Below are positions 4,428 to 21,737 of a stretch of 32,541 nt of DNA, piece after piece. Positions within the stretch are counted from its first letter, which is position 1. The number at the start of each line of letters is the position of its first letter. The DNA lies in NCBI RefSeq assembly GCF_000378045.1, contig NZ_KB899122.1, forward strand, positions 1-32,541, in the 5' to 3' direction. The stretch comes from Marinobacterium rhizophilum DSM 18822. Lineage in GTDB: Bacteria; Pseudomonadota; Gammaproteobacteria; Pseudomonadales; Balneatricaceae. The notes beneath the pieces are model-generated. The model was given only the letters and a program-made list of their open reading frames with translations. It did no database searches and was not told the DNA's origin. Both the position numbers and the translations under genes were made by a program.

Positions 4428-5354
4428 TCAATAGTACCAATTCAAGTAATCAGGAACACTAGACTCTTTGTCCAGATTAAGAAGCGAATTAACAATATCA
4501 TGAGATTCATCATCATCCATGCCGATAGAAGAAAGTCGATTCTTTGCAAAAAACAATACATCTTCAACTTGACTTTGTTCTGTACAGGCACTGGACTCAA
4601 CACTCTCTTCTAATGCTTCGTCAGAAAGAATCTTAAATTCATGAATCTTCCAATCCTTCTTTAACATAACATCTAATTCAATGTAAAAATTGTTTGACAA
4701 AGAATACTCATCGTTAATCAACGAAGAGCATGTGTCGAAAAAACTATTCTTAAGTAATTCAGCATAAACAATGCCAGTCTCTGCGGACTTTGCGATCTCA
4801 CATGCTAACAAATCATTATCGAATTTAACGCCATTAGCATTAGAATCAAAGGCTAACAGCTTATTAGTTAGCAGTTCAACATCTTGCTCATTAATGTTAA
4901 ATAAATATGCAGCAGATAAGAACGAACCAATACAGCTAACATAGTAGTCTTTCGCAATATAATTACGTTTAGAACCATCAAAAAACCTTGAGATACAAAA
5001 CATTACCTCGTAGCCGATCAAAATACTTCTAATCAATTCTAATCCAGACTTATTGAATTTAACTGCTACGGACAATGCTGATGAAATAACAGGCAACCCG
5101 ATAGAGCAATAACTTATGGAGTATCTCGACTTACCACCATTCAAAAAAGACTTGAGACATGTAACAAATGCATGGCGACCAGCATCATTACCACAATTCG
5201 AACTCCAATGAGCTAGTGCATTACCTTTTTCCGTATATGAGCCGACCATAGACTCTGTAACAAACTCTAAAATATGAGATTTAACTACATTAAGGTCTTC
5301 TGCCTGATATTTCTTTTGAAACAAACCGCCGATTAGAGAAAAATCATGCTTCAT
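4428..5354 (-). CDS. Divergent, shortened MmgE/PrpD-like protein
   Basis: A 308-residue protein, last gene of the minus-strand operon, starting 27 bp after the thioesterase gene. I recognise it only weakly. The middle shows the helical pattern of MmgE/PrpD proteins: LPVISSALSVAVKFNKSG, LIRSILIGYEVMF, then GSFLSAAYLFNINEQDVE and a second half with AKSAETGIVYAELLKNSF. PrpD-family enzymes (2-methylcitrate dehydratase, cis-aconitate decarboxylase) are about 450-500 residues and carry a conserved His/Asp-rich active-site loop before the 'HP' motif. Neither that loop nor the usual 'GFH' is seen. The C-terminal lid-like part is replaced by an acidic tail. It may be a degenerate subunit, a regulator or a new enzyme. 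The gene is strongly AT-rich with no internal stops, so it seems maintained. Confidence 0.6.
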   Translation of the reverse strand: MKHDFSLIGGLFQKKYQAEDLNVVKSHILEFVTESMVGSYTEKGNALAHWSSNCGNDAGRHAFVTCLKSFLNGGKSRYSISYCSIGLPVISSALSVAVKFNKSGLELIRSILIGYEVMFCISRFFDGSKRNYIAKDYYVSCIGSFLSAAYLFNINEQDVELLTNKLLAFDSNANGVKFDNDLLACEIAKSAETGIVYAELLKNSFFDTCSSLINDEYSLSNNFYIELDVMLKKDWKIHEFKILSDEALEESVESSACTEQSQVEDVLFFAKNRLSSIGMDDDESHDIVNSLLNLDKESSVPDYLNWYY

Positions 5355-5381
5355 TTTCTCAACCCCATACCTAAATAAAGC

Positions 5382-5771
5382 TCAAGAAGAGCCTAATCGT
5401 TTAAATGTTCCTTGAGCATACGCTACTACTTGACCGTGTTCATCGTATACATAGGCCTCAGAAAAATATATTTTACGTCCTCCACCAATTAATTTACCTT
5501 TAGTAAGCACTTTACTAGGAGCAACCGACTTGACGTAATTTATAGTTAAAGATAATGTTGCAGAGTGTAAAATATCACCCTGCCTGTTATATAAGCCAGG
5601 ATAAGCGCATCCAACATCCAGCAAGGTCGCTAATAAGCCGCCATGCATCTTTGCGCTTCTATTTAAATGATGCGGCTGAACATCAACTAAAAACTCAACA
5701 TAACCATCCGTCCATTTAACAAGATTAATACCAAGAAAATCTAAAAATGGGTTATCTACCTTATATTCCAT
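5382..5771 (-). CDS. PaaI-type hotdog-fold acyl-CoA thioesterase
   Basis: A 129-residue single hotdog domain, the usual size for PaaI/YbgC-like thioesterases that hydrolyse acyl-CoA to free acid and CoA. The family signature is clear: HHLNRSAKMHGGLLATLLD (about residues 34-52), where the HGG turn and following Asp form the active-site region. Then come the central strands TLSLTINYVKSV and the final strand VVAYAQGTFKRL. It lies 18 bp after citF and 27 bp before the PrpD-like gene, all on the minus strand. No Shine-Dalgarno is evident before the ATG, so translation may be coupled to citF. In this context it may release CoA from stalled intermediates. The exact substrate cannot be read from the sequence. 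Confidence 0.85.
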   Translation of the reverse strand: MEYKVDNPFLDFLGINLVKWTDGYVEFLVDVQPHHLNRSAKMHGGLLATLLDVGCAYPGLYNRQGDILHSATLSLTINYVKSVAPSKVLTKGKLIGGGRKIYFSEAYVYDEHGQVVAYAQGTFKRLGSS

Positions 5772-5789
5772 AACTAATTAAACATAAGC

Positions 5790-7217
5790 TCACATAACAT
5801 CGTTAGCATAAATATAATCAATCACATTTCCAAATTGATCTTCGATTACTGCTACAATTTTTTCAGATTTTTCAGCTTCCGTATCGTTTTCCAGACCGCT
5901 GGAAGCAAGATCAAACAAGCATGACATATCTACAATATCTATTGAGCAATTGCTTAACTGACGTTTCAAATCCTCTCGCCTTGGATTTATAGCAACACCA
6001 ACGTCCGTAGCAATAATATCTATATATTTACCGGGCGTGACAATTGTATTAACAGACCTGACGATTTTTGGCCTGCCTTTAGCATGTAGCCTAGTCGTAA
6101 CTATCGATATGTCGGAGCCAGCGCATATATCAATATGCCCACCAGAACCTCCACGAATAACATTGTCGAACCCAGTAACAACATTGACGTTAAAATCCAA
6201 GTCGACTTCAGTTGCACCAACGGCAGCAAAATCCAATCTATTAGCGATAGATAATCGATTAAAGGGATTGGCATAATCATGAACAGACATACGAAGATGG
6301 GCAGGGTCTAAGCCATACGAATCAACAGCAGCATTGTCGAAACTCTGAACATTATACAATTTTTGTACTAGACCTTCCCTAAGCATTTGCACATGGGAAG
6401 ACATAATTCCACCGGCTAGAAAGCCTGCAACTACTTGCCTTTCGGTCATTAATTTGCTAAGCGAGTTAATAACATTTAATGATATCCCTCCAGCACCTGC
6501 TTGATAACTAAATCCATTTCTGAATAACGAAGAGTTAGTGATAACTTTCACCACATTATTCGAAATTGCCAATGACTTGCTATCGACTGCTGGGACAGTA
6601 GAACCTGAATTAATTTTATTGGCATCACCGATGCTGGAAACAACCGCAATATAGTCAATATATTTGTGGCTGATTTCGTAGGTATCTTTCCTTTCAGCAA
6701 TCACATTGTCTGTCACTGCGACAGTATATTTAGCATAAAGTGCATCAGTAATCGAGTATCCTAATGGGGCACATGATTGAATACCGCTTGCAAGTACAGA
6801 GCCATTAGAATCAACCGAAGGAGCGGCTACAAATGTAACATCTACCTTAAGTCTCCCATTAACAATTGAGCCTGCACGCCCACCATGGGACTGCATTATA
6901 ACAGGTTCAGCCATTCGTCCCTCAGAGATATATCGAGCGACGTCACCAGTTAGATAATTGGTATATATTTTAGAGACCGTTCCATCAGCGATAAATTCAG
7001 TCAACCTAGCATGAGCTTGCATTATTGCAGTAGGCGCAATCGTAATATTTTTGACACCCAGTTCTTTCAGGGCCTCCAGTACCTGGAGCAATACCAGATC
7101 CCCATTTCGCAGGTGATGCTGAAAGGATATTACTTGCCCATCTTTTACCGATGCCGCCAACAATGCGTCTTTAATAGTTCCGGAAGGCTTGCCTATACTA
7201 GCTCTATTAATATGCAT
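5790..7217 (-). CDS. citF: Citrate lyase alpha subunit-type CoA-transferase
   Basis: A 475-residue CitF-family protein. In citrate lyase, CitF swaps an acetyl group for citrate on the acyl-carrier subunit; free-standing relatives act as CoA-transferases. Visible family features are GQVISFQHHLRNGD near the N-terminus, VIMQSHGGRAGSI, SYQAGAGGISL, the glycine motif RGGSGGHIDICAGSDISIV, and VTPGKYIDIIATDVGVAINP with RREDL near the end. I chose the ATG at 7217 because the longer frame from 7259 would translate through a perfect hairpin. GTTAGG lies just upstream of the chosen ATG. No citD, citE, citC, citX or citG accompanies it; the only CitE-like gene is the plus-strand lyase. I infer a stand-alone acyl-CoA:dicarboxylate CoA-transferase role. 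Confidence 0.85.
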   Translation of the reverse strand: MHINRASIGKPSGTIKDALLAASVKDGQVISFQHHLRNGDLVLLQVLEALKELGVKNITIAPTAIMQAHARLTEFIADGTVSKIYTNYLTGDVARYISEGRMAEPVIMQSHGGRAGSIVNGRLKVDVTFVAAPSVDSNGSVLASGIQSCAPLGYSITDALYAKYTVAVTDNVIAERKDTYEISHKYIDYIAVVSSIGDANKINSGSTVPAVDSKSLAISNNVVKVITNSSLFRNGFSYQAGAGGISLNVINSLSKLMTERQVVAGFLAGGIMSSHVQMLREGLVQKLYNVQSFDNAAVDSYGLDPAHLRMSVHDYANPFNRLSIANRLDFAAVGATEVDLDFNVNVVTGFDNVIRGGSGGHIDICAGSDISIVTTRLHAKGRPKIVRSVNTIVTPGKYIDIIATDVGVAINPRREDLKRQLSNCSIDIVDMSCLFDLASSGLENDTEAEKSEKIVAVIEDQFGNVIDYIYANDVM

Positions 7218-7235
7218 CACGTAACACCTAACATA

Positions 7236-7257
7236 GGCAGGGACTAATATCCCTGCC
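7236..7257. other. Intercistronic hairpin between SDR and citF
   Basis: A perfect 8-bp stem, GGCAGGGA/TCCCTGCC, with a 6-nt loop lies between the stop of the short-chain dehydrogenase gene and the citF start on the minus strand. On that strand no T-run follows, so it is not a classical terminator. It more likely serves as an mRNA processing or stability element. On the plus strand it is followed by AAATTTATTG, a weak T-rich run. Confidence 0.55.
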
Positions 7258-7274
7258 AAATTTATTGAATTTTA

Positions 7275-8027
7275 TTAAATGACTCGACCACCATCAACGG
7301 GGAACTCAACGCCGGTGATGAAATCAGCCTTATCCGAAGCTAAATAAACAGCGGCATTAGAGACATCGGAGCTTTTAGCCAAACGGCCCAAGGGAATTGT
7401 GGTAAGGAATTTTGCCCGGTTCTCTGGAGTATCTTCAACACCCATGAAGTGTTCCAGCAAGCCGGTTTCACCAAGTACAGGACAAATGGCATTAACTCGG
7501 ATCGCATCAGGACCTAACTCTACAGCCAATGAGCGGGAGAGTGTGTTAACTGCGCCTTTAGAAGCATTATACCAAGTGAGACCAGGCCGTGGGCGAATGC
7601 CAGCAACGGAACCCACATTCAACATAACGCCACCGCCATTTTCTCGCATGAGCGGAACAACTGCTTTAACCATATAGAAAATGGATTTAACATTAACATC
7701 AAAAATCAGATCAAAAGTTTTTTCATCAACATTCATCAAAGGCTGGTTCCGATGAGTTGTACCAGCATTATTTACTACAATATCAGGAGTTCCGAAGTTT
7801 TCTACACAGAAGTTCACTAGGCCATCAATATCATCTTTAATTGCGACGTTACACTTAAATGCTAGCGCATTTTCACCAAGAGACTGAGCGATCTGGTTTG
7901 CGCCTTCTAGATTCAGGTCAGCAAGAACAACTTTCGCACCTTCTTCGACATAGTCACGGGCAATCTGTGCACCAAACCCACTCGCTGCCCCAGTGACGAT
8001 CGCAATCTTATTATTTAAAAGACTCAT
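7275..8027 (-). CDS. Short-chain dehydrogenase/reductase (SDR), probably NAD-dependent
   Basis: A 250-residue classical SDR oxidising or reducing a hydroxyl/keto group. The dinucleotide motif TGAASGFG is at residues 12-19, NNAG at 86-89, the catalytic Ser near 140, and the Tyr-x-x-x-Lys pair at 153/157 within YNASKGAV. Asp37 at the end of the second strand (VVLADLN) points to NAD rather than NADP. The C-terminus, GVEFPVDGGRVI, is typical. GGAG sits 8 nt upstream of the ATG. The gene lies between an aldehyde dehydrogenase and citF in the minus-strand operon. I infer an alcohol or hydroxy-acid oxidation in the same pathway; the substrate is unknown. Confidence 0.92.
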   Translation of the reverse strand: MSLLNNKIAIVTGAASGFGAQIARDYVEEGAKVVLADLNLEGANQIAQSLGENALAFKCNVAIKDDIDGLVNFCVENFGTPDIVVNNAGTTHRNQPLMNVDEKTFDLIFDVNVKSIFYMVKAVVPLMRENGGGVMLNVGSVAGIRPRPGLTWYNASKGAVNTLSRSLAVELGPDAIRVNAICPVLGETGLLEHFMGVEDTPENRAKFLTTIPLGRLAKSSDVSNAAVYLASDKADFITGVEFPVDGGRVI

Positions 8028-8078: not shown

Positions 8079-9512
8079 TTAGCTATAAGAATTTACAACT
8101 GTTTTTGTTTCACAAAACTCATTTAAAGCCTGCAGACCTTTCTCGCGTCCATATCCACTCTTTCTTACACCGCCGAATGGCAATTCAACCCCTCCACCAG
8201 CACCATAACAGTTAATAAATACTTGCCCACACTCAATGCCTTTAGACACTCTAATCTGTCGCGCACCATTCTCTGTCCATACCCCAGCGACAAGACCATA
8301 CTCAGTGCTATTAGCTAGTTCGATTGCTTCTTCTTCACTCTCAAATGTCAACACGGAAAGTACTGGTCCAAAAACCTCTTCCTTTGCCAGAAAATCGTCC
8401 GGCTTTACGGGACCAAATGCTATTGGCGCAACGTAATTACCATTCACATTTGCTGTAGAACAGATTTTACCTTTTCCTATAACCGGAATATCACGAGATA
8501 GTGCGTCATTTACGCAGTTCGACACGAACTCAAACTGTTTTCTAGTAATTATCGGACCGCACGTAGGCGAAGAATTGGAAGGACCAACTTTAGAAGAATT
8601 AAACATTTCGGATAGGCGAGAAACAAATTCATTATAGATTTTCTTCTCAACCAATACACGACTACCTGCAGAGCAGGTTTGTCCAGAGTTCTGTAGAATA
8701 CCATTAACAATACCTGGTACAGCCTTATCTAAGTTGGCGTCGCCGAATACCACTTGTGGGCATTTTCCGCCTAGCTCAAGAACACACCTTACATGATTAT
8801 TGGCAGTAGATTCTTGAATCATCCTACCAACAACTGGAGATCCGGTGAAAGTAAGCATATTAATACCGGAATGGGATGACAAAGCTGCACCAGCCTCGGC
8901 GCCATATCCAGTGACAATATTGAGTGCGCCTTTTGGCAGTCCGGCTTCAAGTGTAAGGGCTGCAAACCGGAGAGACGTAAGACAAGCTTCTTCCGCCGGC
9001 TTAACAACACATGTATTTCCCATGGTCAAAGCTGGGGCAATAGTACGACCAAGCATTTGAGCCGGATAATTCCAAGGAATGATATGAGCGACAACACCAC
9101 AAGGTTCTTTGACAATGCTAACAGAGTATCCATCCAAATAAGGGATTGTTTCTCCATGAATTTTGTCAGCTGCACCACCATAAAATTCAAAATAACGTGC
9201 CAATGCCTTGATGTCAGCTTTTGCCAATTCTAAAGGCTTTCCAGTATCTTCAGATTCGATCGCAGCAAGTTCATCTATGTCGCGTAGTGTCAATTCACAA
9301 ATTTTTGTAAGGATACGGCCGCGTTCCGTTGCAGTTTTTTTGCCCCACTCTCCATTGAAAGCAGAACGTGCAGCAGCTACGGCGCTATCTACATCAGCGG
9401 ACATACCTCTAGGAATCTGTGCGATCTCTAAACCCGTTTCGGGAGATAGTACAGAAATATTTTCGCCACTGGAGGCAGATACATAGACACCATTAATAAA
9501 CATTTTGTTCAT
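8079..9512 (-). CDS. NAD(P)-dependent aldehyde dehydrogenase
   Basis: A 477-residue aldehyde dehydrogenase of full family length that oxidises an aldehyde to its acid. Key residues are in place: Asn148 in IIPWNYP, Glu246 in LELGGKCP, and the nucleophile Cys280 in NSGQTCSAGS. The KEEVFGPVLSV motif and the ending ELPFGGVRKSGYGREKG are betaine/hydroxy-aldehyde dehydrogenase-like. I use the ATG at 9512, preceded by GGAG 8 nt upstream and lying 16 bp after the livF stop. The longer frame from 9596 would overlap livF and has no family support. Together with the SDR it could convert an alcohol via aldehyde to an acid that CitF then activates. Confidence 0.93.
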   Translation of the reverse strand: MNKMFINGVYVSASSGENISVLSPETGLEIAQIPRGMSADVDSAVAAARSAFNGEWGKKTATERGRILTKICELTLRDIDELAAIESEDTGKPLELAKADIKALARYFEFYGGAADKIHGETIPYLDGYSVSIVKEPCGVVAHIIPWNYPAQMLGRTIAPALTMGNTCVVKPAEEACLTSLRFAALTLEAGLPKGALNIVTGYGAEAGAALSSHSGINMLTFTGSPVVGRMIQESTANNHVRCVLELGGKCPQVVFGDANLDKAVPGIVNGILQNSGQTCSAGSRVLVEKKIYNEFVSRLSEMFNSSKVGPSNSSPTCGPIITRKQFEFVSNCVNDALSRDIPVIGKGKICSTANVNGNYVAPIAFGPVKPDDFLAKEEVFGPVLSVLTFESEEEAIELANSTEYGLVAGVWTENGARQIRVSKGIECGQVFINCYGAGGGVELPFGGVRKSGYGREKGLQALNEFCETKTVVNSYS

Positions 9513-9528
9513 TAGACACGCTCCAAAA

Positions 9529-10182
9529 TCAGTTGGTAATTTCACCACGCTCAATATTAAACGTTTGATCTGCGATTCCATGCAGAAGCGCGGCATTAGA
9601 TTCAGTCACAATAATCGCGATATCAGGTTGAGAATTTCTCAAATTACTCAGAGACTCTCCATATTCACGCGCCAACGCGGGTGACAAGCCCTGGAATGGT
9701 TCATCAAGAAGTACAATTCGAGTACCAACCATTAGAGCTCTTCCTAGTGCGACCATCTTACCTTGCCCGCCAGATAGAGCAGCACCAGATCGATCAAGCA
9801 TCGCTTTTAGTTGGGGAACAACATCAAGCACCATATCTATGCGATCTTGCACCTGACCCTTATTATGCCCAACAATTTGGCAAGGAAACATCATGTTTTC
9901 TTTCACGGACATTGTCGGAAATATAACACGTTCTTCGGGCGCCCACCCAATACCTATGTGACTGCGTTCGTATGCTTTTAGATGATTGATCAGTTCACCG
10001 TCAACATGAATAGTTCCGTGTTTGATCTCCACTGCACCCATTATAGTGCGCAATAGAGTAGTCTTTCCTGCTCCGTTTCGACCAATAACAGCAGTTAAAG
10101 ACCCTGCATGCACTTCTCCGGTGACATTTCTTAATACATTGATTCCTGCTACATCTGAGCAAACGCTTTGAAGTTTCAACAT
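9529..10182 (-). CDS. livF: Branched-chain amino acid-type ABC transporter ATPase (LivF-like)
   Basis: A 217-residue ABC ATPase. Walker A is GRNGAGKTT (residues 34-42), the signature is LSGGQGKMVALGRAL, and Walker B is RIVLLDEPFQGLSPA. The pattern 'IGIGWAPEERVIFPTMSVKENM' (compare 'GIGYVPEGRRIFPxLTVxENL') is specific to LivF. It is somewhat shorter than the usual 233 or more residues, at the C-terminus. Its start overlaps the livG stop by one base (TAATG), so the two ATPases are translationally coupled. It powers the LivHM permease at the inner membrane. Confidence 0.93.
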   Translation of the reverse strand: MLKLQSVCSDVAGINVLRNVTGEVHAGSLTAVIGRNGAGKTTLLRTIMGAVEIKHGTIHVDGELINHLKAYERSHIGIGWAPEERVIFPTMSVKENMMFPCQIVGHNKGQVQDRIDMVLDVVPQLKAMLDRSGAALSGGQGKMVALGRALMVGTRIVLLDEPFQGLSPALAREYGESLSNLRNSQPDIAIIVTESNAALLHGIADQTFNIERGEITN

Positions 10183-10979
10183 TACGAAACTCCCTTAACT
10201 AATTTTACAGTATTCATATTTGGTTCAGTCCTGCTGAAGGATTGTCCCAATACTTGCTCTTGAATCACTGGATCATTCAATACCATATCAGGAGCACCAT
10301 CTGCTGCAATGGCTCCTGAAATCCATGCGGCAACTCGCGTTGCATATTGAGATACAATATCAATATCGTGCTCTACGAAAATACTAGTAACCTTATATTT
10401 ATCAAGTACCCCCATCAGTATTCGCATTATTTCGTGCTTTTCCTGTGAAGATACGCCGCTAGTCGGTTCATCCATTATCAATAATCGAGGCCGAAGCACC
10501 AGCGCCATCGCGATATCTAGAAGTTTTTTATGACCTTCCGGAAGAGACCCCGCTAAAACATCGCTGCGGTCCAATAACTGGATAGAGGTAAGTACCTCAT
10601 AGACCTCCTTCTGATCAACACAACTTGATAGTGACTTGAATAAAGAGGTCTTATTATCACGTGCTGCTAACGATAGCTCAATACACTCCCTCACTGTATG
10701 CTCTGAATAAACTTGAGGAAGTTGGAACGACCTGACCATTCCCATTTTCACAATGGCCCTAGCACTCTTCTTGGTAATATCTTCGTCAGCGAAATAAATG
10801 TTACCACTATCTGGACGTATAAGGCCGGTACAGATATTTATAAAAGTTGTCTTACCAGCACCATTCTGACCGATAACAGCAAGCCTCTCTCCTTCCTTCA
10901 AACTAAAATCAATGTTATCAGCAACAACTATAGAACCGAAAGATAGATTTAAATTGGTTGTTTTAAGAAGATCAGACAT
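10182..10979 (-). CDS. livG: Branched-chain amino acid-type ABC transporter ATPase (LivG-like)
   Basis: A 265-residue ABC ATPase. It has Walker A GQNGAGKTT, LivG-specific 'GMVRSFQLPQVYSEHTVREC', Walker B RLLIMDEPTSGVSSQE and the switch His in IFVEHDIDIV. The ABC signature reads LPEGHKKLLDIAMAL rather than canonical LSGGQ. LivG proteins often carry a variant 'L.YG.Q..LEIA' here, so this is a moderate variation and not obviously disabling. It starts 7 bp after livM. It forms the ATPase pair with LivF. Confidence 0.93.
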   Translation of the reverse strand: MSDLLKTTNLNLSFGSIVVADNIDFSLKEGERLAVIGQNGAGKTTFINICTGLIRPDSGNIYFADEDITKKSARAIVKMGMVRSFQLPQVYSEHTVRECIELSLAARDNKTSLFKSLSSCVDQKEVYEVLTSIQLLDRSDVLAGSLPEGHKKLLDIAMALVLRPRLLIMDEPTSGVSSQEKHEIMRILMGVLDKYKVTSIFVEHDIDIVSQYATRVAAWISGAIAADGAPDMVLNDPVIQEQVLGQSFSRTEPNMNTVKLVKGVS

Positions 10980-10986
10980 AATTCAC

Positions 10987-11916
10987 CTATATATATTTCT
11001 TATTCTTCAGCCACCCAGAAATACCACCAGGAGCAAAATATATAATTAAAATTAGAGTACTCCCCAAGATCATATGCCAGTAATCCGTCATTAATATAGC
11101 TGCATACATCTTAAGAAACTCGAATGCCATTGCACCTATGATAGCTCCAAAGGAGTGGGCCACACCACCAAGAAGAGAAATAAATACCAACTCGCCTGAT
11201 TTAAGCCAATAACCCATCTCAGGTGTTACCAGACCCTGAACCAACGCGAATATCGCGCCTGCCAGACCGCAAAGCGATGAAGAGATAACATAGCCCTTCC
11301 AGAAAACAAAGCGTGCAGAAACACCAATATATTCTAGGCGAGTCTCATTAGTTTTAATTGCGCAAAGAAACTTCCCAGCAGGAGAATTAAAGAAGCGTTC
11401 AATAAAATATGTAACCAATAGAATTGATACAGTTGTAGTTATGAGCAGTAGCGTCTCAAACCCATCTCTTTCCAATTCAAATCCGATGAAGCTTGGGCGT
11501 GAAATCATCATCCCATCGCTACCACCAGTGATGTTGTAATATTTGCCAATAACCGCAAATAGTACCATCGATATCGCTAGATTGAGCATACCGAAGAAAA
11601 TCTCTCGATACTTAGAAACGAAAATACCAATAATAGCACCAGCAATAGTACTAATTGCTACGCCACATACAATAAGCACTAAACCATCGATCCCTGGATA
11701 AGCCTTAGCAATGAAGGCCACTGAATAGGCTGCCAAACATACATACATGGCGTGTCCAAATGAAACTTGTCCTGCGCGCATTAGAACTGATATGCCTAAC
11801 GCAGCAAGCCCATAAGATAGCGCAAGTATAATTGGCGTTTTTAAATGAGGCAGTAGAAAAGCAGTTACCACCGAGCCAGTAAGTAATATTATTGTAGCAA
11901 TAATACCTTTCATCAT
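10987..11916 (-). CDS. livM: Branched-chain amino acid-type ABC permease (LivM-like)
   Basis: A 309-residue multi-spanning inner-membrane permease. The family hallmarks are GISVLMRAGQVSFGHAMYVC near the N-terminus (compare 'GxxGxxSLGHAAFxGIGAY'), YNITGGSDGMM, FERDGFETLLL, and GLAGAIFALVQGLVTPEMG with SLLGGVAHSFGAIIGA in the second half. The ATG overlaps the livH stop (ATGA), and AGGAG lies 5 nt upstream, so it is coupled to livH. In LivM-type transporters this subunit with LivH forms the pore for small carboxylates or amino acids. Confidence 0.93.
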   Translation of the reverse strand: MMKGIIATIILLTGSVVTAFLLPHLKTPIILALSYGLAALGISVLMRAGQVSFGHAMYVCLAAYSVAFIAKAYPGIDGLVLIVCGVAISTIAGAIIGIFVSKYREIFFGMLNLAISMVLFAVIGKYYNITGGSDGMMISRPSFIGFELERDGFETLLLITTTVSILLVTYFIERFFNSPAGKFLCAIKTNETRLEYIGVSARFVFWKGYVISSSLCGLAGAIFALVQGLVTPEMGYWLKSGELVFISLLGGVAHSFGAIIGAMAFEFLKMYAAILMTDYWHMILGSTLILIIYFAPGGISGWLKNKKYI

Positions 11917-12815: not shown

Positions 12816-12817
12816 AA

Positions 12818-14993: not shown

Positions 14994-15417
14994 TTGTTAC
15001 GGGGTTCAAAAGTAGACCTCAGGCCGCCTGAGGCCGAACCGGTAACGAAGCTGAAACCGATGACGACACGGAAGCCACTGGGCATGCGTTAACACGAGAC
15101 AAAACGAGTAGCCCTTTGTGTCCTTGGGCGTGTCCTTCGGCCCATCCTGAGTCCCTGGCAGGCCCCACAGTAGTCACGAAGCACGCCCCGGGATACTTCA
15201 TGGACCGACATGCCCAAGGTAACTGAGCCAATGTCGCCGCGCGGACATCCGGTACTTTAGAGGTCAGGCGTACCCATGAAGGCCAATACGGGATAAAAAG
15301 GGCGCTCCAGGCGCTCCAGGCGCCCTGGCGAACAACACGGACCTCGATCTGCTGCAGCCTTATCCGCAGGCCACGAATAGAAAAGCAGTTAACAATAGGA
15401 GTGGATTAACTTATGAG
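14994..15417. other. Unassigned GC-rich spacer between IS remnants
   Basis: I recognise no gene here. Short minus-strand frames exist but look like chance. A 9-bp unit GGCGCTCCA is directly repeated twice at 15301-15318. Near 15017-15035 there is an imperfect GC-rich palindrome around CCTCAGGC. The composition differs from the AT-rich operon genes, suggesting transposon debris of another origin. Confidence 0.35.
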
Positions 15418-15858
15418 AGGATGTTGAACCAGCCCACTCACACCTGTGTGGCATATCCAACGGCATCTCGGCTTGCAATGGTCCGCGATGATGGATGACT
15501 TTCGTCTTAATAAAGGCCAATGATCGTTTCGGTCAAGGCGTTGCCGCACGAGTCGCGGGTTGTACGGTACAAACAGACGCATCTATATCGTCTTCTGCTA
15601 GCCACTCGCTATAGCGGAACGGCAGGTGCTGACTGCCCCAATCACTATGATGAACCAGTCTTTCAGGATGTTTGCGAGCCCACTGCGCTTACCCAGTGCC
15701 TCTGACACCGGGTCCGCCCACATCGACGGCGATACCCATCTACCAAAGATTCAGTGAACATCTCCATCACTGACGAATGCGACTTAGACATAACCTGACT
15801 AGATCGTCACGTTGCCGATCTAAGCTACCCAGAACGGGTTAGGGCCGCGAGTAATCAA
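15418..15858 (-). pseudogene. IS3-family OrfB (integrase core) remnant
   Basis: Reading leftwards from about 15856: FTRGPNPFWVA, then fragments matching 'ITxVxTxxGxVYVAFVxD' and GRWVS, then DWFIIVIGAVST (degenerate 'VHHSDRGSQY'). SCGNALTETIIGLY is followed, after a stop, by DESHPSSRTIASRDAVGYAT and VGWFNI. This corresponds to the IS3 integrase core from the first catalytic Asp to past the Glu region, broken by several stops. It represents the OrfB part missing from the IS3 remnant at 0.7-1.3 kb, although I cannot show they are the same element. Confidence 0.7.
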
Positions 15859-16118
15859 AAGACACTTACAGCTAGAAAGCATTCAGCGATTTGCCGGGGA
15901 GGCCGACAATGAGACATGGTGTTGCCTTTCTGGTGTAAGGAAGATAGGAGTACCCCGGAAAATCGTGCACAGCAAACCGACTCAAAAAGGAAAAGTCCGC
16001 CATTAGCGCATTCGGCGCGTTAACATATGTCGAACGCCGTATTTTAAAATTGCTGATTCACAAACGCCTTAACTATTTGCAGGATATAGTATGTCAACGT
16101 TAAAAAGAGACAAGAATA

Positions 16119-16946
16119 ATGAGCCCTGTAGACGTTACAGCATGGATCGGCCGTTCGGAGAAAGCGTACGACGAAATCAGTTTCGGCAACATCCAAAGAA
16201 TCGCAGCTACCCTGAGCGAAGTCCGTCCAGGTTGGGGCAGTCCTCTTCCACCACTTTGGCAATGGTGCTTTTTTCAGAAAAATGCTCCTGAATCTGAACT
16301 CGGTATCGACGGTCATCCAACAAGAGGAGGTTACCTTCCTACTGTAGAAAACCGAAACAGGATGTGGGCCGGAGGACGTATCGACTTCTATACTCCGTTG
16401 ATCATTGGTACTGCAGCGACGCGCGTAACAACGATTAAGAACGCCCAAGAAAAGGTTGGCAAGGCCGGCAATCTTCTCTTCGTCACAGTTGAACATAAGT
16501 ACATTCAAGACGACATTGTGGCCATTCGTGAGGAGCAGGATATCGTTTACCGAGATCCAACACCTCTTACACTAAAATGCTCAGCTCCAATACCTGATGC
16601 AGACTGGGTTGAAGAAATTAAGCCTACGTCAACTTTATTGTTCCGTTATTCCGCCATAACTTTCAATAGTCACCGTATTCATTATGATTGGCCCTATGCT
16701 ACAGAGTGCGAAGGTTATCCTGGACTTGTTGTTCATGCTCCCCTTATTGCTACGCTGACTCTTCGCGCATTTTGTAGGGCAAACCCGGAAGCAAAGTTAA
16801 AACATTTTTCTTATCGAAGTATCTGCCCCTTATTCTCTCCCGAACCGTTCAAGTTAGGAGGAACCATCCAATCACCTGGCCGAGGTATGATTTGGGCTGG
16901 TTCAGACACTGGAGTTGCTCAACAGGGTGAAGTCATTTTCGAGTAA
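16119..16946 (+). CDS. ich: Itaconyl-CoA hydratase-like MaoC/HTD2-type protein
   Basis: A 275-residue protein of the mesaconyl-C4-CoA/itaconyl-CoA hydratase family, made of two fused hotdog domains. The first covers residues 1-150, with MWAGGRIDFYTPL near 82-94. The second, catalytic domain has the MaoC motif NSHRIHYDWPYA (residues 183-194), with the hydratase Asp/His pair, then EGYPGLVVH (198-206). In Pseudomonas the orthologous enzyme hydrates itaconyl-CoA to citramalyl-CoA. It is the first gene of the plus-strand operon, in the same relative place as in the P. aeruginosa itaconate cluster. The chosen ATG has a weak AAGAGA; a stronger site precedes an out-of-frame ATG at 16091. The IS debris upstream leaves only about 250 bp for a promoter. 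Confidence 0.88.
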   Translation: MSPVDVTAWIGRSEKAYDEISFGNIQRIAATLSEVRPGWGSPLPPLWQWCFFQKNAPESELGIDGHPTRGGYLPTVENRNRMWAGGRIDFYTPLIIGTAATRVTTIKNAQEKVGKAGNLLFVTVEHKYIQDDIVAIREEQDIVYRDPTPLTLKCSAPIPDADWVEEIKPTSTLLFRYSAITFNSHRIHYDWPYATECEGYPGLVVHAPLIATLTLRAFCRANPEAKLKHFSYRSICPLFSPEPFKLGGTIQSPGRGMIWAGSDTGVAQQGEVIFE

Positions 16947-16972: not shown

Positions 16973-18139
16973 ATGTCATATAACCCTCACAACGAAGAGC
17001 TAGATGCTATCCGTGAAGGCGTACGAGGTCTTTGTCGTAACTTCGATGCCGCCTATTGGCGAAAGGTTGACGAGACTAAGGGCTTCCCAGAGGCCTTTGT
17101 TAATGCTCTGACCGAGGCTGGTTGGCTCGCTGCTATGATACCGGAGGAGTTTGGAGGGGCAGGTCTCGGATTAGCTGAAGCATCCGTAATCCTAGAAGAA
17201 GTCAATAGATGCGGTGGGAACTCAGGTACCGTACACGGCCAGATGTATAACATGTTCACCCTCCTTAGGCATGGCAGTCCTGAGCAAAAACAGACGTTCT
17301 TGCCTAAAATAGCTGCTGGAGAACTGCGCCTTCAATCCATGGGGGTTACCGAACCGACGACTGGGACCGATACGACCAAGATTAAAACGACGGCAGTACG
17401 TAAAGGAGATAAGTACTATATCAATGGACAGAAGGTGTGGATCTCTCGAATTCAGCACTCGGATCTGATGATTCTTTTAGCTCGCACGACACCGCTGGCT
17501 GAGGTCGCACGTAAGACTGAAGGAATGTCGATATTCCTGATTGACCTGAAATACGCCATGGAAAATGGTATGAGGGTACAGCCAATCGCGAATATGGTGA
17601 ATCATGAGACTAACGAACTGTTCTTTGACAACCTGGAAATTCCAGCATCGTGCCTTATTGGGGAAGAGGGCAAAGGGTTTCGTTACATTCTAGACGGCCT
17701 TAACGCGGAGCGTACTCTGATCGCGGCTGAGTGTATCGGTGACGGGCGTTGGTTCATCGAAAAGGCCACCAATTATGCGCGTGATCGTGAGGTGTTTGGT
17801 AGGCCCATCGGTAAAAATCAGGGCGTTCAGTTCCCCATTGCGCAGGCCCATATCGATATCGAAGCTGCCGACCTCATGCGATGGAGAGCCTGTTACGAAT
17901 ACGACAACGGTCTCCCGGCTGGAGCAAGTGCCAATATGGCGAAATACCTGGCAGCGGAAGCTTCCTGGAAGGCTGCCAATGTCTGTCTTCAGACGCATGG
18001 GGGATTTGGTTTCGCCTGTGAATACGATGTAGAGCGTAAGTTCCGCGAGACTCGTCTATATCAGGTCGCCCCTATTTCAACCAATTTGATTTTGGCTTAT
18101 ATCGCAGAGCATATTCTTGAGCTCCCACGCTCATTTTAA
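16973..18139 (+). CDS. Acyl-CoA dehydrogenase of the itaconate cluster
   Basis: A 388-residue flavoprotein of usual acyl-CoA dehydrogenase length. It has IPEEFGGAGLGLAEA (residues 56-70), the flavin/substrate segment MGVTEPTTGTD (123-133), KVWISRI, FGRPIGKNQGVQFPIA (275-290) and QTHGGFGFACEYDVER (340-355). Normally an 'I.EGT' motif near residue 368 supplies the catalytic Glu; here it reads YQVAPISTNL. A Glu in GLNAERTLIAAE (about 246 or 253) might act instead, as in isovaleryl-CoA dehydrogenase. Its homologue sits at the same position in the Pseudomonas itaconate cluster. Its role there may be side-entry of methylsuccinyl-CoA-like substrates (inference). GGAG precedes the ATG, 26 bp after ich. 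Confidence 0.92.
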   Translation: MSYNPHNEELDAIREGVRGLCRNFDAAYWRKVDETKGFPEAFVNALTEAGWLAAMIPEEFGGAGLGLAEASVILEEVNRCGGNSGTVHGQMYNMFTLLRHGSPEQKQTFLPKIAAGELRLQSMGVTEPTTGTDTTKIKTTAVRKGDKYYINGQKVWISRIQHSDLMILLARTTPLAEVARKTEGMSIFLIDLKYAMENGMRVQPIANMVNHETNELFFDNLEIPASCLIGEEGKGFRYILDGLNAERTLIAAECIGDGRWFIEKATNYARDREVFGRPIGKNQGVQFPIAQAHIDIEAADLMRWRACYEYDNGLPAGASANMAKYLAAEASWKAANVCLQTHGGFGFACEYDVERKFRETRLYQVAPISTNLILAYIAEHILELPRSF

Positions 18140-18266: not shown

Positions 18267-18296
18267 ATGACATTTTAAGCTCGTGGAGATTTTTTA

Positions 18297-19649
18297 ATGG
18301 GTCAAAATAGTCTAAAGCTCGCTCTATTTCTTGAAGTATTAAATTATGAGCAATTGCCAAACCATGTAATCGAGCGTACTGAGGAGCTTTTTCTCGATTG
18401 GCTAGGCTCAGCCCTCGCAAGTAAGGAAGCCCACCCAATCCCCCTGTTTGAACGATATGCAGATTATATGGGCCCTTTGTCAGGACCCGCAAGCATATTG
18501 GTTAATCAGAAAAGTTCCAGCGCTTATTTCGCAGCCCTTGTTAACGGTGCCAGCTCACACTTAGTAGAGCAAGATGATTTGCATAACAGCTCTGTACTTC
18601 ATCCCGCTACTGTCGTCTTCCCTGCTGTTCTGGCAGCAGCCCAAGACCTAAAGAAATCCGGGCGTGATTTAGTAGTGGCATCAGTTGCCGGTTACGAAGC
18701 AGGGATTCGTATAGGCGAGTTCTTGGGTCGATCTCACTATCGTATTTTCCATACCACGGCGACTGTCGGAACAATAGCAGCTGCAGTGGCTGTGGGAAAG
18801 CTAATGAATTTTGACCAATCCCAGTTTCTAAATCTCTTCGGTAACGCGGGTACTCAGGCTGCCGGTTTATGGGAGTTTCTTAAGGACGCAGCAGACTCCA
18901 AGCAACTACACACAGGGAAAGCTGCAGCGGATGGCCTACTAGCAGCTTACATGACTCGCGAAGGCTTGACTGGCGCACAGGATATCCTTGAGGGTGACCA
19001 GGGAATGGCCGCTGGTATGTCCATTGACCCTGTACCAGAACAATTATCGGACCGATTGGGTGAACGTTGGGCACTAGCCGAGACATCTTTCAAGTTCCAT
19101 GCGTCATGTCGACATACACACCCTGCAGCTGATGCACTTCTGGAACTGATGAAATCCAGCGGCATCAACGCTGACGATATTCAATCCGTTACCGCACACG
19201 TTCACCAAGGAGCTATAGATGTACTGGGTCGTGTGGATGTCCCTCGAACAGTACACCAGGCAAAGTTCTCCATGGGCACTGTTTTGGGATTGATCGCTCT
19301 TTACGGTAATGCTGGGCTAAATGAATTCCACAATTTCGCGCTCACGGATCCCCGAATTGGAGAGTTCAGAGAGAAGGTACGAATGGAGTTGGATTCGGAA
19401 GTCGATAATGCCTACCCCAATAAATGGCTGGGTCGTGTTTCTGTGACGACCAGCGGAGGTCATACGCTGACTGGAAAAATAGATGACCCAAAGGGAGACC
19501 CTACTAATACATTGTCTCGCGGTGAACTCGAAGACAAATTTAGACGCCTAACCGAATTCTCACGTGCGCGTAATGCATCAGAGACCACAGCGCTTATCGA
19601 CTTGGTTTGGAACCTACGCCATCTCAAATCATTAGATGGCCTAAAGTAA
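18297..19649 (+). CDS. MmgE/PrpD family protein of the itaconate cluster
   Basis: A 450-residue full-length MmgE/PrpD protein (the family includes 2-methylcitrate dehydratase and cis-aconitate decarboxylase). The N-terminal helical domain contains the active-site loop GASSHLVEQDDLHNSSVLHP (residues 85-103, with His88, Asp93, Asp94, His96 and His102), GYEAGIRIGEFLG, FHTTATVGTIAAA and HTGKAAADGLLAAYM. The smaller lid domain carries SFKFHASCRHTHPAADALL. All motifs missing from the divergent PrpD-like protein at 4428-5354 are present here. In Pseudomonas its homologue lies between the dehydrogenase/small-protein genes and the CoA-transferase. Its reaction there is not settled; hydration/dehydration of a C5-C6 polycarboxylate fits the fold. 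GGAG lies 8 nt before the ATG. Confidence 0.92.
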   Translation: MGQNSLKLALFLEVLNYEQLPNHVIERTEELFLDWLGSALASKEAHPIPLFERYADYMGPLSGPASILVNQKSSSAYFAALVNGASSHLVEQDDLHNSSVLHPATVVFPAVLAAAQDLKKSGRDLVVASVAGYEAGIRIGEFLGRSHYRIFHTTATVGTIAAAVAVGKLMNFDQSQFLNLFGNAGTQAAGLWEFLKDAADSKQLHTGKAAADGLLAAYMTREGLTGAQDILEGDQGMAAGMSIDPVPEQLSDRLGERWALAETSFKFHASCRHTHPAADALLELMKSSGINADDIQSVTAHVHQGAIDVLGRVDVPRTVHQAKFSMGTVLGLIALYGNAGLNEFHNFALTDPRIGEFREKVRMELDSEVDNAYPNKWLGRVSVTTSGGHTLTGKIDDPKGDPTNTLSRGELEDKFRRLTEFSRARNASETTALIDLVWNLRHLKSLDGLK

Positions 19650-19696
19650 GAGTCAATCAAAAAGTGATAATCAATATAGATGGATAGTAATTGGTC

Positions 19697-20896
19697 ATGA
19701 AAAATAAAAGTAATCTGCCGCTTGAAGGTGTAACTATTGTAAGCTTGGAGCATGCTATCGCTGCCCCTTTCTGCACTCGACAACTTGCTGACCTAGGTGC
19801 TCGTGTTATTAAGGTCGAACGACCGGGAACCGGCGATTTCGCCAGAGCATACGATCAGCGTGTTAAAGGTCTTGCTTCTCATTTTGTCTGGACCAACAGA
19901 TCCAAAGAAAGTGTCTGCCTTGATCTTAAAAAGGAAGAGGCAAGAAATATCCTCGACAAGATTCTCGACAAAGCAGACATCTTGGTTCAAAACCTGGCTC
20001 CGGGTGCTGCAAGGCGTATGGGTCTCTCTTTTGAAGCACTGCATGAACGCTTCCCACAACTGATCGTCTGCAACATCTCCGGCTATGGAGAGGGCGGACC
20101 CTATGAGCAGAAGAAGGCTTACGATCTCCTGATCCAGAGTGAAGGTGGGTTCCTATCTGTGACTGGAGGTCCGGGCGAGGGCGAATTGGCAAAGGCAGGG
20201 TGTTCGATTGCGGATATCGCTGCCGGAATGTATGCATACACTGGAATACTTTCGGCACTATTGCTACGTAATAAAACTGGCGAAGGCAGTAGAGTTGATG
20301 TTTCCATGCTTGAAAGTCTAGTCGAGTGGATGAGCTATCCGCTCTACTACGCACATGATGGTGCTCCGCAGCCCCCTCGTGCAGGAGCTGCACATGCAAC
20401 CATATACCCATATGGTCCATTCCCTACCGGAGATGGTCATACGGTTATGCTCGGTTTACAAAATGAACGTGAGTGGGAACTCTTTTGCAAAAAAGTATTA
20501 TGTATGAGCGAGCTCGTTACTGATGAACGATACGTTTCCAATTCAAAACGCTCTGAACATCGTTCTGATTTGCGAGATACAATTATCAGTGTATTCTCTC
20601 AATTAACAGCTGATGAGGTAATCGAACGCCTTGATTCAGCACCCATTGCTAATGCGCGAGTCAATACTATGGCTGAAGTATGGGATCATCCACAACTCAA
20701 AGCTAGAGAGCGATGGTGCAATATTGAGAGTCCGTCTGGCACTATTCCTGCGCTACTTCCGCCAGCAAATAATAGTGCATTCAATCCTCAAATGGGGCCG
20801 GTACCTGCGCTTGGTGAGCACAGCGAAAAAGTACTCCTTGAGTTAGGGTATACACCGGAGTACTTTAATTTTCTTCGCTCAAATCAGATAGTTTAA
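19697..20896 (+). CDS. ict: Class III (CaiB/BaiF) CoA-transferase, probable itaconate CoA-transferase
   Basis: A 399-residue CaiB/BaiF-type CoA-transferase. It begins GVTIVSLEHAIAAPFCTRQL and continues ADLGARVIKVERPGTGDFAR. The catalytic Asp is Asp143 in KKAYDLLIQSEGG (compare 'PAYDxLxQAxSGL'), followed by SVTGGPG, and GCSIADIAAGMYAYTGILSAL is typical. I place the start at the ATG at 19697; a TTG two codons earlier is an alternative. In the Pseudomonas pathway this enzyme transfers CoA from succinyl-CoA to itaconate. The position directly before the CitE-like lyase and after the PrpD gene is the same as in that cluster, which is the main reason for the assignment. Closely related enzymes use other dicarboxylates (mesaconate, citramalate). 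Confidence 0.88.
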   Translation: MKNKSNLPLEGVTIVSLEHAIAAPFCTRQLADLGARVIKVERPGTGDFARAYDQRVKGLASHFVWTNRSKESVCLDLKKEEARNILDKILDKADILVQNLAPGAARRMGLSFEALHERFPQLIVCNISGYGEGGPYEQKKAYDLLIQSEGGFLSVTGGPGEGELAKAGCSIADIAAGMYAYTGILSALLLRNKTGEGSRVDVSMLESLVEWMSYPLYYAHDGAPQPPRAGAAHATIYPYGPFPTGDGHTVMLGLQNEREWELFCKKVLCMSELVTDERYVSNSKRSEHRSDLRDTIISVFSQLTADEVIERLDSAPIANARVNTMAEVWDHPQLKARERWCNIESPSGTIPALLPPANNSAFNPQMGPVPALGEHSEKVLLELGYTPEYFNFLRSNQIV

Positions 20897-20912
20897 TTTT
20901 AGGAGTTATTTC

Positions 20913-21737
20913 ATGTCACGTAGTATTATTCGTACAGCGTTATTTGTTCCTGGCTCCAGACCTGAAAGAATTCCGAAAGCTATTACTGCAGGCGCAGATG
21001 CTGTCATTGTAGACTTTGAAGACGCCGTAGAAGAAGCTCTGAAAGAGGAAGCGCGCAGCAATTTGGATAATTTCCTTAAGACAAACAAATCGGGTCCAGG
21101 AGTTATCGTTCGTATCAATGCAACCAACCACCATCAGCATGAAGCAGATTTAGAGTTTTGCCGCGAACATAGTGGTGTCCTAGGAATAATGCTCCCTAAA
21201 TCGGAGAGTGCTGCTCAGATTGCGCAAGTAGCAAGCTGTAACAAACCCATTATCCCTTTAATCGAGAGCGTTTTAGGTCTTTATAATGTACGTGATATCG
21301 CTTCGGCAACTGGAGTAGAGCGGTTATCATTCGGCTCGCTTGATCTGGCTGCCGACCTAGGCATCAACGCGGAATCAACAGCCGGAAAATGCATACTAGA
21401 TCAAGCAAGATACTCTATCTTGCTTGCATCACGTGCTGCCAATCTCAAGCCGGCAATTGATACCGTATTCCCTGCGATATCGGATGTTACCGGATTTCTT
21501 AAAGCTGCTAACGATGCGAGAGATATGGGATTTGGTGGCATGCTTTGCATCCATCCTAAGCAGATAGCGATAGTACACGAGGCCATGATGCCAAAACCTG
21601 AAGAACTGGATTGGGCAAAAAAAATAATGGAAATAAGTAAAGAAGGTAAAGGAGTATTTGTTGTCGACGGTGCAATGGTTGATGCTCCAGTTATTGAGCG
21701 CGCGCGACGGATACTAGAAAGAGGCTCCCTCAACTAA
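20913..21737 (+). CDS. ccl: CitE-like (S)-citramalyl-CoA lyase
   Basis: A 274-residue HpcH/HpaI-CitE TIM-barrel lyase. The motifs are LFVPGSRPERIPKA (residues 10-23), VDFEDAV (33-39, metal and substrate acids), VRIN (66-69, substrate Arg), MLPKSES (93-99), PLIES (115-119, metal Glu) and SFGSLDLAADLG (139-150, second metal Asp). Free-standing CitE-like proteins cleave citramalyl-CoA or malyl-CoA, giving pyruvate or glyoxylate plus acetyl-CoA. As the last gene of the Ich-Ict cluster it should be the citramalyl-CoA lyase producing pyruvate and acetyl-CoA. AGGAG precedes the ATG, 16 bp after ict. It is the only CitE-type protein in the window, so it might also serve the orphan CitF pathway. Confidence 0.9.
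   Translation: MSRSIIRTALFVPGSRPERIPKAITAGADAVIVDFEDAVEEALKEEARSNLDNFLKTNKSGPGVIVRINATNHHQHEADLEFCREHSGVLGIMLPKSESAAQIAQVASCNKPIIPLIESVLGLYNVRDIASATGVERLSFGSLDLAADLGINAESTAGKCILDQARYSILLASRAANLKPAIDTVFPAISDVTGFLKAANDARDMGFGGMLCIHPKQIAIVHEAMMPKPEELDWAKKIMEISKEGKGVFVVDGAMVDAPVIERARRILERGSLN

Follow-up and report, generated by a model that had tools for sequence, protein, structure and literature searches.

Itaconate/methylsuccinate genes beside a Liv-type importer and alcohol and aldehyde dehydrogenases in Marinobacterium rhizophilum: a possible wider route for branched C5 compounds

Results and discussion

An itaconate/methylsuccinate operon

The window, by which we mean the whole 32,541-nucleotide stretch of Marinobacterium rhizophilum DSM 18822 analysed here, carries ich, mcd, mmgE, ict and ccl (5/5) together on one strand (plus, 16119-21737), the gene content of clusters of the Pseudomonas aeruginosa type. 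The product of ich (16119..16946), by homology an itaconyl-CoA/mesaconyl-C4-CoA hydratase of that type, matches the Pfam family FAS1_DH_region (PF13452) only below threshold; it is named from gene order and from relatives in G007 and G054, which adjoin mcd/ict and share 39–48% identity with it. Its neighbour mcd (16973..18139) has acyl-CoA dehydrogenase domains, is 74–84% identical to its counterparts in the same two clusters, and is assigned as methylsuccinyl-CoA dehydrogenase by homology to the enzyme described in PMC12290011. The predicted (S)-(R)-methylsuccinate isomerase mmgE/msi (18297..19649; MmgE_PrpD N and C domains) contains, with identical numbering, all of the isomerase residues named in that source (H88, E91, H102, Y148, H152, K202 and K266). 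Cis-aconitate decarboxylase was rejected as its identity, since these residues and the position of the gene suit an isomerase better. The remaining genes are ict (19691..20896), a predicted family III itaconate/methylsuccinate/citramalate CoA transferase (CoA_transf_3, CaiB-type) 60–67% identical to counterparts in the G162, Methyloversatilis, Rhizobium, Cupriavidus N-1 and Acinetobacter loci, and ccl (20913..21737; HpcH_HpaI), a predicted CitE-like (S)-citramalyl-CoA lyase. The top NCBIfam match of Ccl, RipC_Ccl, scores 167.6 bits against an equivalog cut-off of 375, and its probable identity rests on position and similarity.

A sequence-only reading had listed the same plus-strand genes, and all five lie where it placed them, with the expected family matches (sub-threshold for ich). 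It had also noted the lack of a C4-dicarboxylate-type transporter, in agreement with which the 20 ORFs scanned and three further window ORFs gave no match to TRAP or C4-dicarboxylate carrier families. Judged by gene content, the operon is the published cluster, described in 2025 for itaconate and methylsuccinate (PMC12290011); the core itself is thus not new, and novelty is confined to the upstream part. Among the papers listed in literature searches on the C5 acids, 2-methyl-1,4-butanediol, tulipalin, Liv-type importers and CitF, none was recognised as describing the composite.

A divergent operon with a Liv-type importer

Genes in the order SBP-LivHMGF-ALDH-SDR-CitF-thioesterase-ORF run along the minus strand from 14119 to 4428, and fit a single operon because gaps between them are short or the genes overlap. 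The first encodes a Liv/HAAT-type periplasmic binding protein (SBP, 12818..14119; Peripla_BP_6), with 51–58% identity to the SBP that heads this operon at each of four further loci, and is followed by the permeases LivH (11913..12875, likely start 12815) and LivM (10987..11916; both BPD_transp_2) and the ATPases LivG (10182..10979) and LivF (9529..10182; both ABC_tran), completing an ABC importer within one operon. All five importer proteins score under the curated cut-offs of the branched-chain amino acid and urea equivalogs, for which reason amino-acid uptake was dropped as a function, and no ligand is proposed for the binding protein because its PDB matches are weak (best 2e-15). Further along the operon are the aldehyde dehydrogenase aldhA (8079..9596, likely start 9512; Aldedh) and the SDR with which it is paired, a predicted alcohol dehydrogenase (7275..8027; adh_short_C2) that served as marker for the neighbourhood search.

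A stand-alone family II CoA transferase, CitF (5790..7259; CitF Pfam, 393 bits), a hotdog thioesterase (5382..5771; TIGR00369) and a 308-aa ORF (4428..5354) complete the operon. The importer, ALDH, SDR, CitF and thioesterase of the sequence-only reading were borne out, but its second PrpD-like protein is a weak case: the 308-aa ORF matches MmgE_PrpD_N over 72 residues only, at 25.9 bits against a gathering cut-off of 32.1, and has 17 of 68 residues in common with the window MmgE. Its single-sequence structure model (mean pLDDT 39) is too low for use, a comparison with 226 loci that did not count its own copy gave no match, and the ORF is probably diverged or inactive. The thioesterase, an accessory gene, has one 42% match among the same loci, its own copy likewise left out.

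Flanking genes and base composition

The relevant gene set extends to about 31.1 kb, past the region considered earlier, which had missed a GMC/ALDH/LysR block at 23.9–31.1 kb. On the plus strand, aldhB (22103..23593; Aldedh) resembles an ALDH that Rhizobium pRLG203 carries downstream of ict-CitF-fumarase-pyc, with 71% identity across 192 aa. The regulator LysR_b (23899..24813, plus) has relatives in GMC/CitF clusters (61–67% identity in Methyloversatilis and G162), and aldhC (26736..28199, plus), an aldehyde dehydrogenase paired with an alcohol dehydrogenase, has relatives in six loci (66–81%; G162, Methyloversatilis, L023, G776, Acinetobacter and Klebsiella). On the same strand follow a DUF1097 membrane protein (28261..28776; PF06496; 58% identity in the G162 cluster), a predicted GMC alcohol dehydrogenase (28936..30651; GMC_oxred N and C; 74–79% identity in G162, Methyloversatilis and L023) and a c-type cytochrome (30674..31120; PF00034), 44–56% identical to genes adjoining GMC in G162 and Methyloversatilis and likely the electron acceptor of GMC. 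The GMC protein has an N-terminal RR motif, which we take to be an export motif, and is probably periplasmic; its PDB matches comprise several alcohol oxidases and choline dehydrogenases, with no single substrate picked out. At the other end of the window, LysR_a (1808..2716, minus) shares 44–48% identity with the LysR that adjoins ich in each of G054 and G007.

Insertion-sequence remnant makes up part of the 2 kb inter-operon stretch (14120..16118), with an IS66 transposase match in 14524-14694. The stretch has one promoter-like site, below the average of 2.1 for shuffled sequence. GC content steps from 35–46% in the minus-strand operon to 45–50% across the core and as much as 56% at GMC/aldhC. 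These steps, together with the insertion-sequence remnants between blocks, suggest that the pieces may have arrived separately.

Recurrence in other genomes

The seven-gene order SBP-LivHMGF-ALDH-SDR recurs in Chelatococcus plasmid pCO-6, G257, G617 and Pseudorhodobacter at 44–65% identity; in two background operons, L112 and L018, identity to the window's Liv and SBP genes is 24–32%. The sequence-only reading would have been refuted had the two operons never co-occurred elsewhere, but in pCO-6 and G257 SBP-LivHMGF-ALDH-SDR has ich, mcd and ccl near it, along with a CoA transferase of the CaiB type; at the other two loci it stands without them. In both G162 and Methyloversatilis thermotolerans, ALDH-SDR-CitF is accompanied by ict-ccl, LysR_b, GMC, cytochrome c and aldhC, without a relative of the window's ich. 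G776 has the order OMP-GMC-ALDH-SDR-aldhC-ict-ccl and Palleronia ALDH-SDR-fumarase-ict-mcd-MmgE, and on an Acinetobacter plasmid two alcohol/aldehyde dehydrogenase pairs accompany all five core genes (ADH-aldhC-ict-ich-ccl-mcd, SDR-ALDH, MmgE, MFS, pyruvate carboxylase). Two Cupriavidus plasmids have CitF adjoining ich-mcd and ict-ccl, and one Rhizobium plasmid has it adjoining ict. Of the nine linked loci (window counted), eight have an aldhA relative next to the SDR, the exception being G839, which has core genes and SDR but no such neighbour; SDR identity is 71–72% in G162 and Methyloversatilis and 57–65% in the remaining linked loci. Among the loci examined, the window alone combines Liv, CitF and GMC with the full five-gene core.

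As independent genomes link Liv-ALDH-SDR or ALDH-SDR-CitF to ict/ccl, with or without ich/mcd/mmgE, we conclude that the genes belong together. This supports the association proposed earlier as regards Liv, ALDH, SDR and CitF, but not as regards the thioesterase and the second PrpD-like ORF, which are in none of the composites found elsewhere. A chance mosaic, in which insertion sequences juxtaposed the itaconate/methylsuccinate operon and an unrelated Liv-ALDH-SDR operon acting on different substrates, would account for the IS66 and DUF772 transposase remnants and the IS110 gene between or beside the blocks, for the steps in base composition, and for the absence of core genes from roughly 18 kb around two of the five Liv-ALDH-SDR operons. 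We nevertheless consider it quite unlikely, the modules being linked independently and in differing gene orders in Chelatococcus, G257, G162, Methyloversatilis, G776, Acinetobacter and Palleronia.

SDR relatives are mostly unlinked: at least two core or CitF genes lie nearby in 3 of 60 genome loci, and a Liv operon in 2. These 60, of which 7 are shorter than 15 kb, came from a genome SDR search and left out the window, G162 and a second copy in G481; 12 rows chosen by similarity or annotation brought the total to 72. The L105 locus was excluded (SDR identity 31%), and 9 of 55 records on the plasmid SDR list were inspected. On the SDR tree the labels cluster weakly, with 7 changes where shuffling gives 8.6 on average and 29 of 500 shuffles are as low. 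This analysis used extra Chelatococcus queries, so that ict, ich, ccl and mmgE of the Chelatococcus locus are self-matches. With window queries alone that locus is matched at 42% for ich, 64% for mcd, 41% for mmgE and 36% for ccl, the transferase falling below the 45% cut, and all nine linked rows keep at least two of the genes.

A stand-alone CitF

The window CitF scores 415.8 bits against a citF equivalog cut-off of 501.45, and in a tree that excluded the split CitF of Cupriavidus N-1 it groups with four other stand-alone CitF, apart from four canonical ones. Three of four canonical loci examined read citC-D-E-F-X-G, the fourth being annotated with citX fragments only. Neither the window genome (G000) nor G162 has a match to the CitD acyl carrier protein (PF06857; E. 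coli control positive), and the one match found in Methyloversatilis, like the one on a Cupriavidus plasmid, is distant from CitF; a 204-aa ORF upstream of the Cupriavidus CitF has no Pfam match. A stand-alone CitF in genomes with no ACP family match may use free CoA esters, and we propose that it acts as an acetyl-CoA:citramalate CoA transferase. The window resembles citramalate/citrate lyase (CitDEF with CitC, CitX and CitG) in having CitF and a CitE-like lyase (Ccl), which overall could turn citramalate into acetate and pyruvate, but it differs in that its genome has no ACP family match and in the sub-cut-off CitF score. The CitF transferase family is described as naturally ACP-dependent in PMC9813914, and an ACP-independent member, if true, would be unusual. 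A single-protein scan of genome contigs for CitF (29 stretches) found no relatives, and 4 of 6 matches from a class-level search (about 80–105 aa at 29–33%) were excluded as CitF.

Proposed pathway and uptake

Similar gene combinations in distant bacteria suggest a wider pathway from a C5 alcohol or hydroxy-acid. We think it fairly probable that the window is one catabolic island with two functional parts, oxidation of a C5 diol or omega-hydroxy-acid and then cleavage of a C5 dicarboxylate; SDR and ALDH are broad families, which counts against a single pathway. The alcohol or aldehyde precursors envisaged in the sequence-only reading appear to fit best, given the ALDH-SDR modules linked to ict/ccl elsewhere. 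In the scheme whose direction, substrate, dehydrogenase and CitF roles and common regulation we infer, the Liv-type importer would take up a branched five-carbon diol or omega-hydroxy-acid, and two pairs (GMC and cytochrome c with aldhC; SDR with aldhA) would oxidise its ends to a branched C5 dicarboxylate at the methylsuccinate, mesaconate, itaconate or citramalate level. Ict and CitF would make the CoA ester; from methylsuccinate and itaconate, Msi, Mcd and Ich would lead to (S)-citramalyl-CoA, which Ccl would cleave to acetyl-CoA and pyruvate. Mesaconate could be drawn in by the class I fumarase that the genome encodes. Published work describes what Ict, Ich, Ccl, Mcd and Msi catalyse (PMC12290011, PMC9875883), as well as the mesaconase activity of class I fumarases (PMC4682846). 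More tentatively, the genes may constitute a mobile pathway in which both ends of the branched C5 diol or omega-hydroxy-acid are oxidised and the itaconate/methylsuccinate core is joined by an ACP-free citramalate lyase made up of acetyl-CoA-using CitF and Ccl. Example substrates for such a pathway are 2-methyl-1,4-butanediol, (E)-2-methyl-2-butene-1,4-diol and a related lactone.

As described in PMC12290011 and PMC9875883, the P. aeruginosa and C. necator clusters share ich, mcd, mmgE/msi, ict and ccl with the window, whose operon ORFs lack a TRAP carrier and a PA0880-type gene and which adds the adjacent Liv importer, alcohol and aldehyde dehydrogenases and CitF. The P. aeruginosa TRAP carrier IctPQM (PMC12599236) likewise lies beside itaconate genes with a probable role in C5 uptake, but belongs to a different family from the Liv/HAAT-type ABC importer. 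The latter might simply replace it, carrying itaconate, methylsuccinate or citramalate, with SDR and ALDH serving other compounds or clearing side products. We give this little credence, even though TRAP genes are unmatched in the scanned window ORFs and an adjacent carrier is not universal in the family, C. necator being without one (PMC12290011), because SDR and ALDH come after the importer in all five Liv loci, and the G162, Methyloversatilis, G776 and Acinetobacter loci pair dehydrogenases with ict-ccl and have no matching Liv operon. Under the preferred diol or hydroxy-acid pathway, the Liv-type system would be a second kind of importer for itaconate/methylsuccinate degradation. The recurrent upstream oxidation module would indicate a further source of methylsuccinate, a C5 alcohol or hydroxy-acid; where methylsuccinate comes from in the environment was unclear, according to the authors of PMC12290011, until a gut-bacterial itaconate reductase was reported.

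The product of oxidation could instead be citramalate, formed from a tertiary-hydroxyl substrate of the 2-methyl-1,2,4-triol type, in which case ich/mcd/mmgE would reach the same ester by a route of their own. GMC/ALDH pairs of tert-butanol degraders act on 2-methyl-1,2-propanediol, and G162 has GMC, both ALDHs, SDR, CitF, ict and ccl without a match to window-type ich. We regard citramalate as a rather unlikely product, however: fumarase lies within the Palleronia, G839, Klebsiella and Rhizobium loci, and class I fumarase is present in all five genomes searched (G000, G162, G257, G776 and Methyloversatilis), so that mesaconate would serve equally. Citramalate is also the intermediate in common with mesaconate utilisation via class I fumarase as described in PMC4682846, from which the window differs in that its genome's fumarase sits outside it, on another contig.

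Core operon and divergent Liv operon

The plus-strand operon ich-mcd-mmgE-ict-ccl (16119-21737), delimited by open reading frames (ORFs) and family matches, has the content of the five-gene cluster of Cupriavidus necator and Pseudomonas, described as three itaconate enzymes, a methylsuccinyl-CoA dehydrogenase and an (S)-(R)-methylsuccinate isomerase (PMC12290011). All seven isomerase residues named there occur at the same positions in the window MmgE. The P. aeruginosa set moved into Pseudomonas putida is reported to give growth on itaconate, (S)-citramalate, mesaconate and methylsuccinate (PMC9875883). Because its content matches the published cluster and this gene transfer conferred growth, the operon is the already-known half of the pathway, and the sequence-only reading of ich, acyl-CoA dehydrogenase, prpD-like, ict and ccl genes as an itaconate core is borne out.

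The minus-strand operon encodes SBP, LivH, LivM, LivG, LivF, an aldehyde dehydrogenase (ALDH, aldhA), an SDR, CitF, a hotdog thioesterase and a 308-aa ORF, in that order, with small gaps or overlaps between genes. The observation of two gene sets stands overall, with ORFs and families as described, and their proposed union into one enlarged pathway is partly supported, through recurrent dehydrogenase-core linkage in other genomes, but loses its second PrpD enzyme. The 308-aa ORF behind that claim has a sub-cut-off MmgE_PrpD_N match across 72 residues, is identical to the window MmgE at 17 of 68 residues, yielded an unusable structure model and has no match in 226 loci (own copy excluded); it was not counted as a PrpD enzyme. 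Its neighbour, the thioesterase, has a single match in those loci (42%), adjoining a Salipiger SDR.

The core of the pathway is known; the proposed enlarged pathway is the new part, with good comparative support from gene neighbourhoods. Substrates would enter via the Liv importer (for comparison with P. aeruginosa uptake see PMC12599236). Protein families and recurrence suggest oxidation by the GMC alcohol dehydrogenase/cytochrome c with aldhC and by the SDR with aldhA, after which, as known for homologues, Ict would activate the product with CoA, Msi, Mcd and Ich would convert it and Ccl would cleave it, with CitF a putative further participant. From pathway chemistry, we take the candidate substrates to be 2-methyl-1,4-butanediol, (E)-2-methyl-2-butene-1,4-diol, 4-hydroxy acids and lactones.

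Linkage of the Liv operon and SDR to core genes

The SDR query was run on 398 phylum genomes and 369 class genomes, 60 SDR places from these searches were fetched and scored, and plasmid loci were added. The window's order SBP-H-M-G-F-ALDH-SDR recurs on Chelatococcus pCO-6, in Pseudorhodobacter turbinis and in two of the 60 genome loci (G257 and G617), at identities of 44-65%; the Liv and SBP genes of two background operons (L112, L018) reach 24-32%. The predicted Liv-core neighbourhood is found in Chelatococcus (MmgE, MaoC-type ich, mcd, CaiB transferase and ccl) and in G257 (mcd, ict, ich and ccl), but no core genes were seen within ~18 kb in G617 or Pseudorhodobacter, giving three core-linked operons in five loci, window counted. 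A metallo-beta-lactamase-fold hydrolase lies between SDR and ccl in Chelatococcus (L109 12837-13820); if a lactonase, it would fit a lactone precursor.

At least two of ict, ccl, ich, mcd, mmgE and citF were nearby in 9 of 72 SDR entries. Three of these (G776, G839, G257) come from the 60 genome loci; the remaining six, which include the window, come from the 12 entries picked on similarity or annotation. The window's SDR clade (support 92/94) holds 8 linked entries in 23, versus 1 in 49 elsewhere (Fisher p 0.0003, for a clade picked post hoc). Clustering against shuffled labels is weak, with 7 changes on the tree versus a shuffled mean of 8.6 and 29 of 500 shuffles as low. Linked and unlinked SDRs are intermixed, so the SDR by itself does not define the pathway: a Paracoccus ALDH-SDR stretch has no core genes, a Vibrio SDR relative sits in a pantothenate-like cluster, and ALDH-SDR of Diaphorobacter adjoins a mutase cluster. 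The argument for the link is its repeated independent occurrence.

GMC block and probable assembly of the island

A form without Liv genes occurs in G162 and Methyloversatilis thermotolerans 3t, where ALDH, SDR and CitF stand together with ict and ccl in clusters that also hold LysR_b, aldhC, an outer-membrane protein, GMC and cytochrome c. In the window, relatives of LysR_b, aldhC, GMC and cytochrome c lie at 23.9-31.1 kb, beyond the span first noted, as does a DUF1097 gene with a relative in G162. Among the best 80 of 435 confirmed GMC relatives, two exceed 70% identity (L023 74%, L024 79%) and the remainder reach at most 48%, so the subfamily looks rare. L023, which belongs to a Planctomycetota-labelled MAG as one of its contigs, carries aldhC, outer-membrane protein, GMC and ccl, and G776 has the order OMP-GMC(50%)-ALDH-SDR-aldhC(73%)-ict-ccl. 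The window ich query had no match in the G162, Methyloversatilis or L023 genomes, the latter two searched without a positive control of their own and the same query detecting the window genome's copy in the G162 search. Downstream of cytochrome c in the window is a cyclic nucleotide-binding domain protein (31671-32168, plus strand).

GC content runs from 35-46% in the minus-strand operon through 45-50% across the core to as much as 56% at aldhC/GMC, and ich and CitF are absent from six same-genus genomes. An IS110 family (RNA-guided) transposase gene (25237-26253, minus strand; above the curated cut-off) between LysR_b and aldhC interrupts a gene block that in G162 is unbroken. Insertion-sequence remnants with weak HTH_Tnp_1, DUF772 and IS66 transposase matches lie at 697-1017 (minus), 4079-4300 (plus) and 14524-14694 (minus); the IS66 and DUF772 remnants and the IS110 gene fall between or beside gene blocks. 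We infer that the island was built by stepwise horizontal assembly. Such an assembly is also the main argument for the rival reading that the blocks are unrelated to one another, against which stands the recurrence of dehydrogenase-core linkage in other genomes that favours the enlarged pathway.

Stand-alone CitF

CitF has itself as sole match in its own genome and, in a set of 57 relatives, is missing from the 56 others; among 369 class genomes a second full-length match occurs only in G162. Ninety plasmid records match it, the best at 43% (Rhizobium, Cupriavidus). On the Cupriavidus plasmids CitF is flanked by mcd-ich and pyruvate carboxylase-ccl-ict, and on the plasmid from Rhizobium it comes after ict. 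Of four further CitF loci inspected, three hold the full citC-D-E-F-X-G operon and the fourth is annotated with citX fragments only. In a nine-row tree a fully supported branch separates five stand-alone from four canonical proteins (one a 428-aa piece), the window CitF forming a long branch. No PF06857 protein was found in the window genome or G162 (positive control, E. coli), and Methyloversatilis and one Cupriavidus plasmid each have one distant from CitF, which may be a malonate decarboxylase subunit. Since CitF-family transferases, naturally acting on acyl carrier proteins, accept CoA esters in vitro (PMC9813914), acetyl-CoA and citramalate are plausible substrates of the stand-alone CitF, for which Ccl would serve as the lyase. 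In Cupriavidus necator N-1 pBB1, CitF is two overlapping ORFs in different frames (L016 11878-13417), reflecting either disruption of the gene or a sequencing error. Directly 5' of CitF on both Cupriavidus plasmids is a ~200-aa ORF (L016 11242-11856, with no Pfam match; L015 11222-11830).

Other dehydrogenase-core loci

A third form is seen on an Acinetobacter pittii plasmid, where ADH-aldhC(75%)-ict-ich-ccl-mcd is followed by SDR(65%)-ALDH and, after these, by genes for MmgE, an MFS carrier and pyruvate carboxylase. Palleronia has ALDH-SDR, fumarase and ict-mcd-MmgE; in G839 an MmgE-like gene occurs with mcd, fumarase, ccl, ich, SDR and ict, but no aldhA relative is in the locus. A Klebsiella plasmid carries ALDH-SDR-ADH-aldhC-fumarase in a stretch with no match to ict or ccl, and AtuA-family and DUF4387 genes head this cluster (L104 7241-8960). 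Linked loci other than G839 share a predicted route to citramalyl-CoA and one or two alcohol/aldehyde dehydrogenase pairs. Class I fumarases, which hydrate mesaconate to (S)-citramalate (PMC4682846), are present in all five genomes searched. Pyruvate carboxylase recurs beside clusters of this kind (L103 23956-27393, L014 16435-19899, L016 13462-16911), as if refilling oxaloacetate from the pyruvate formed.
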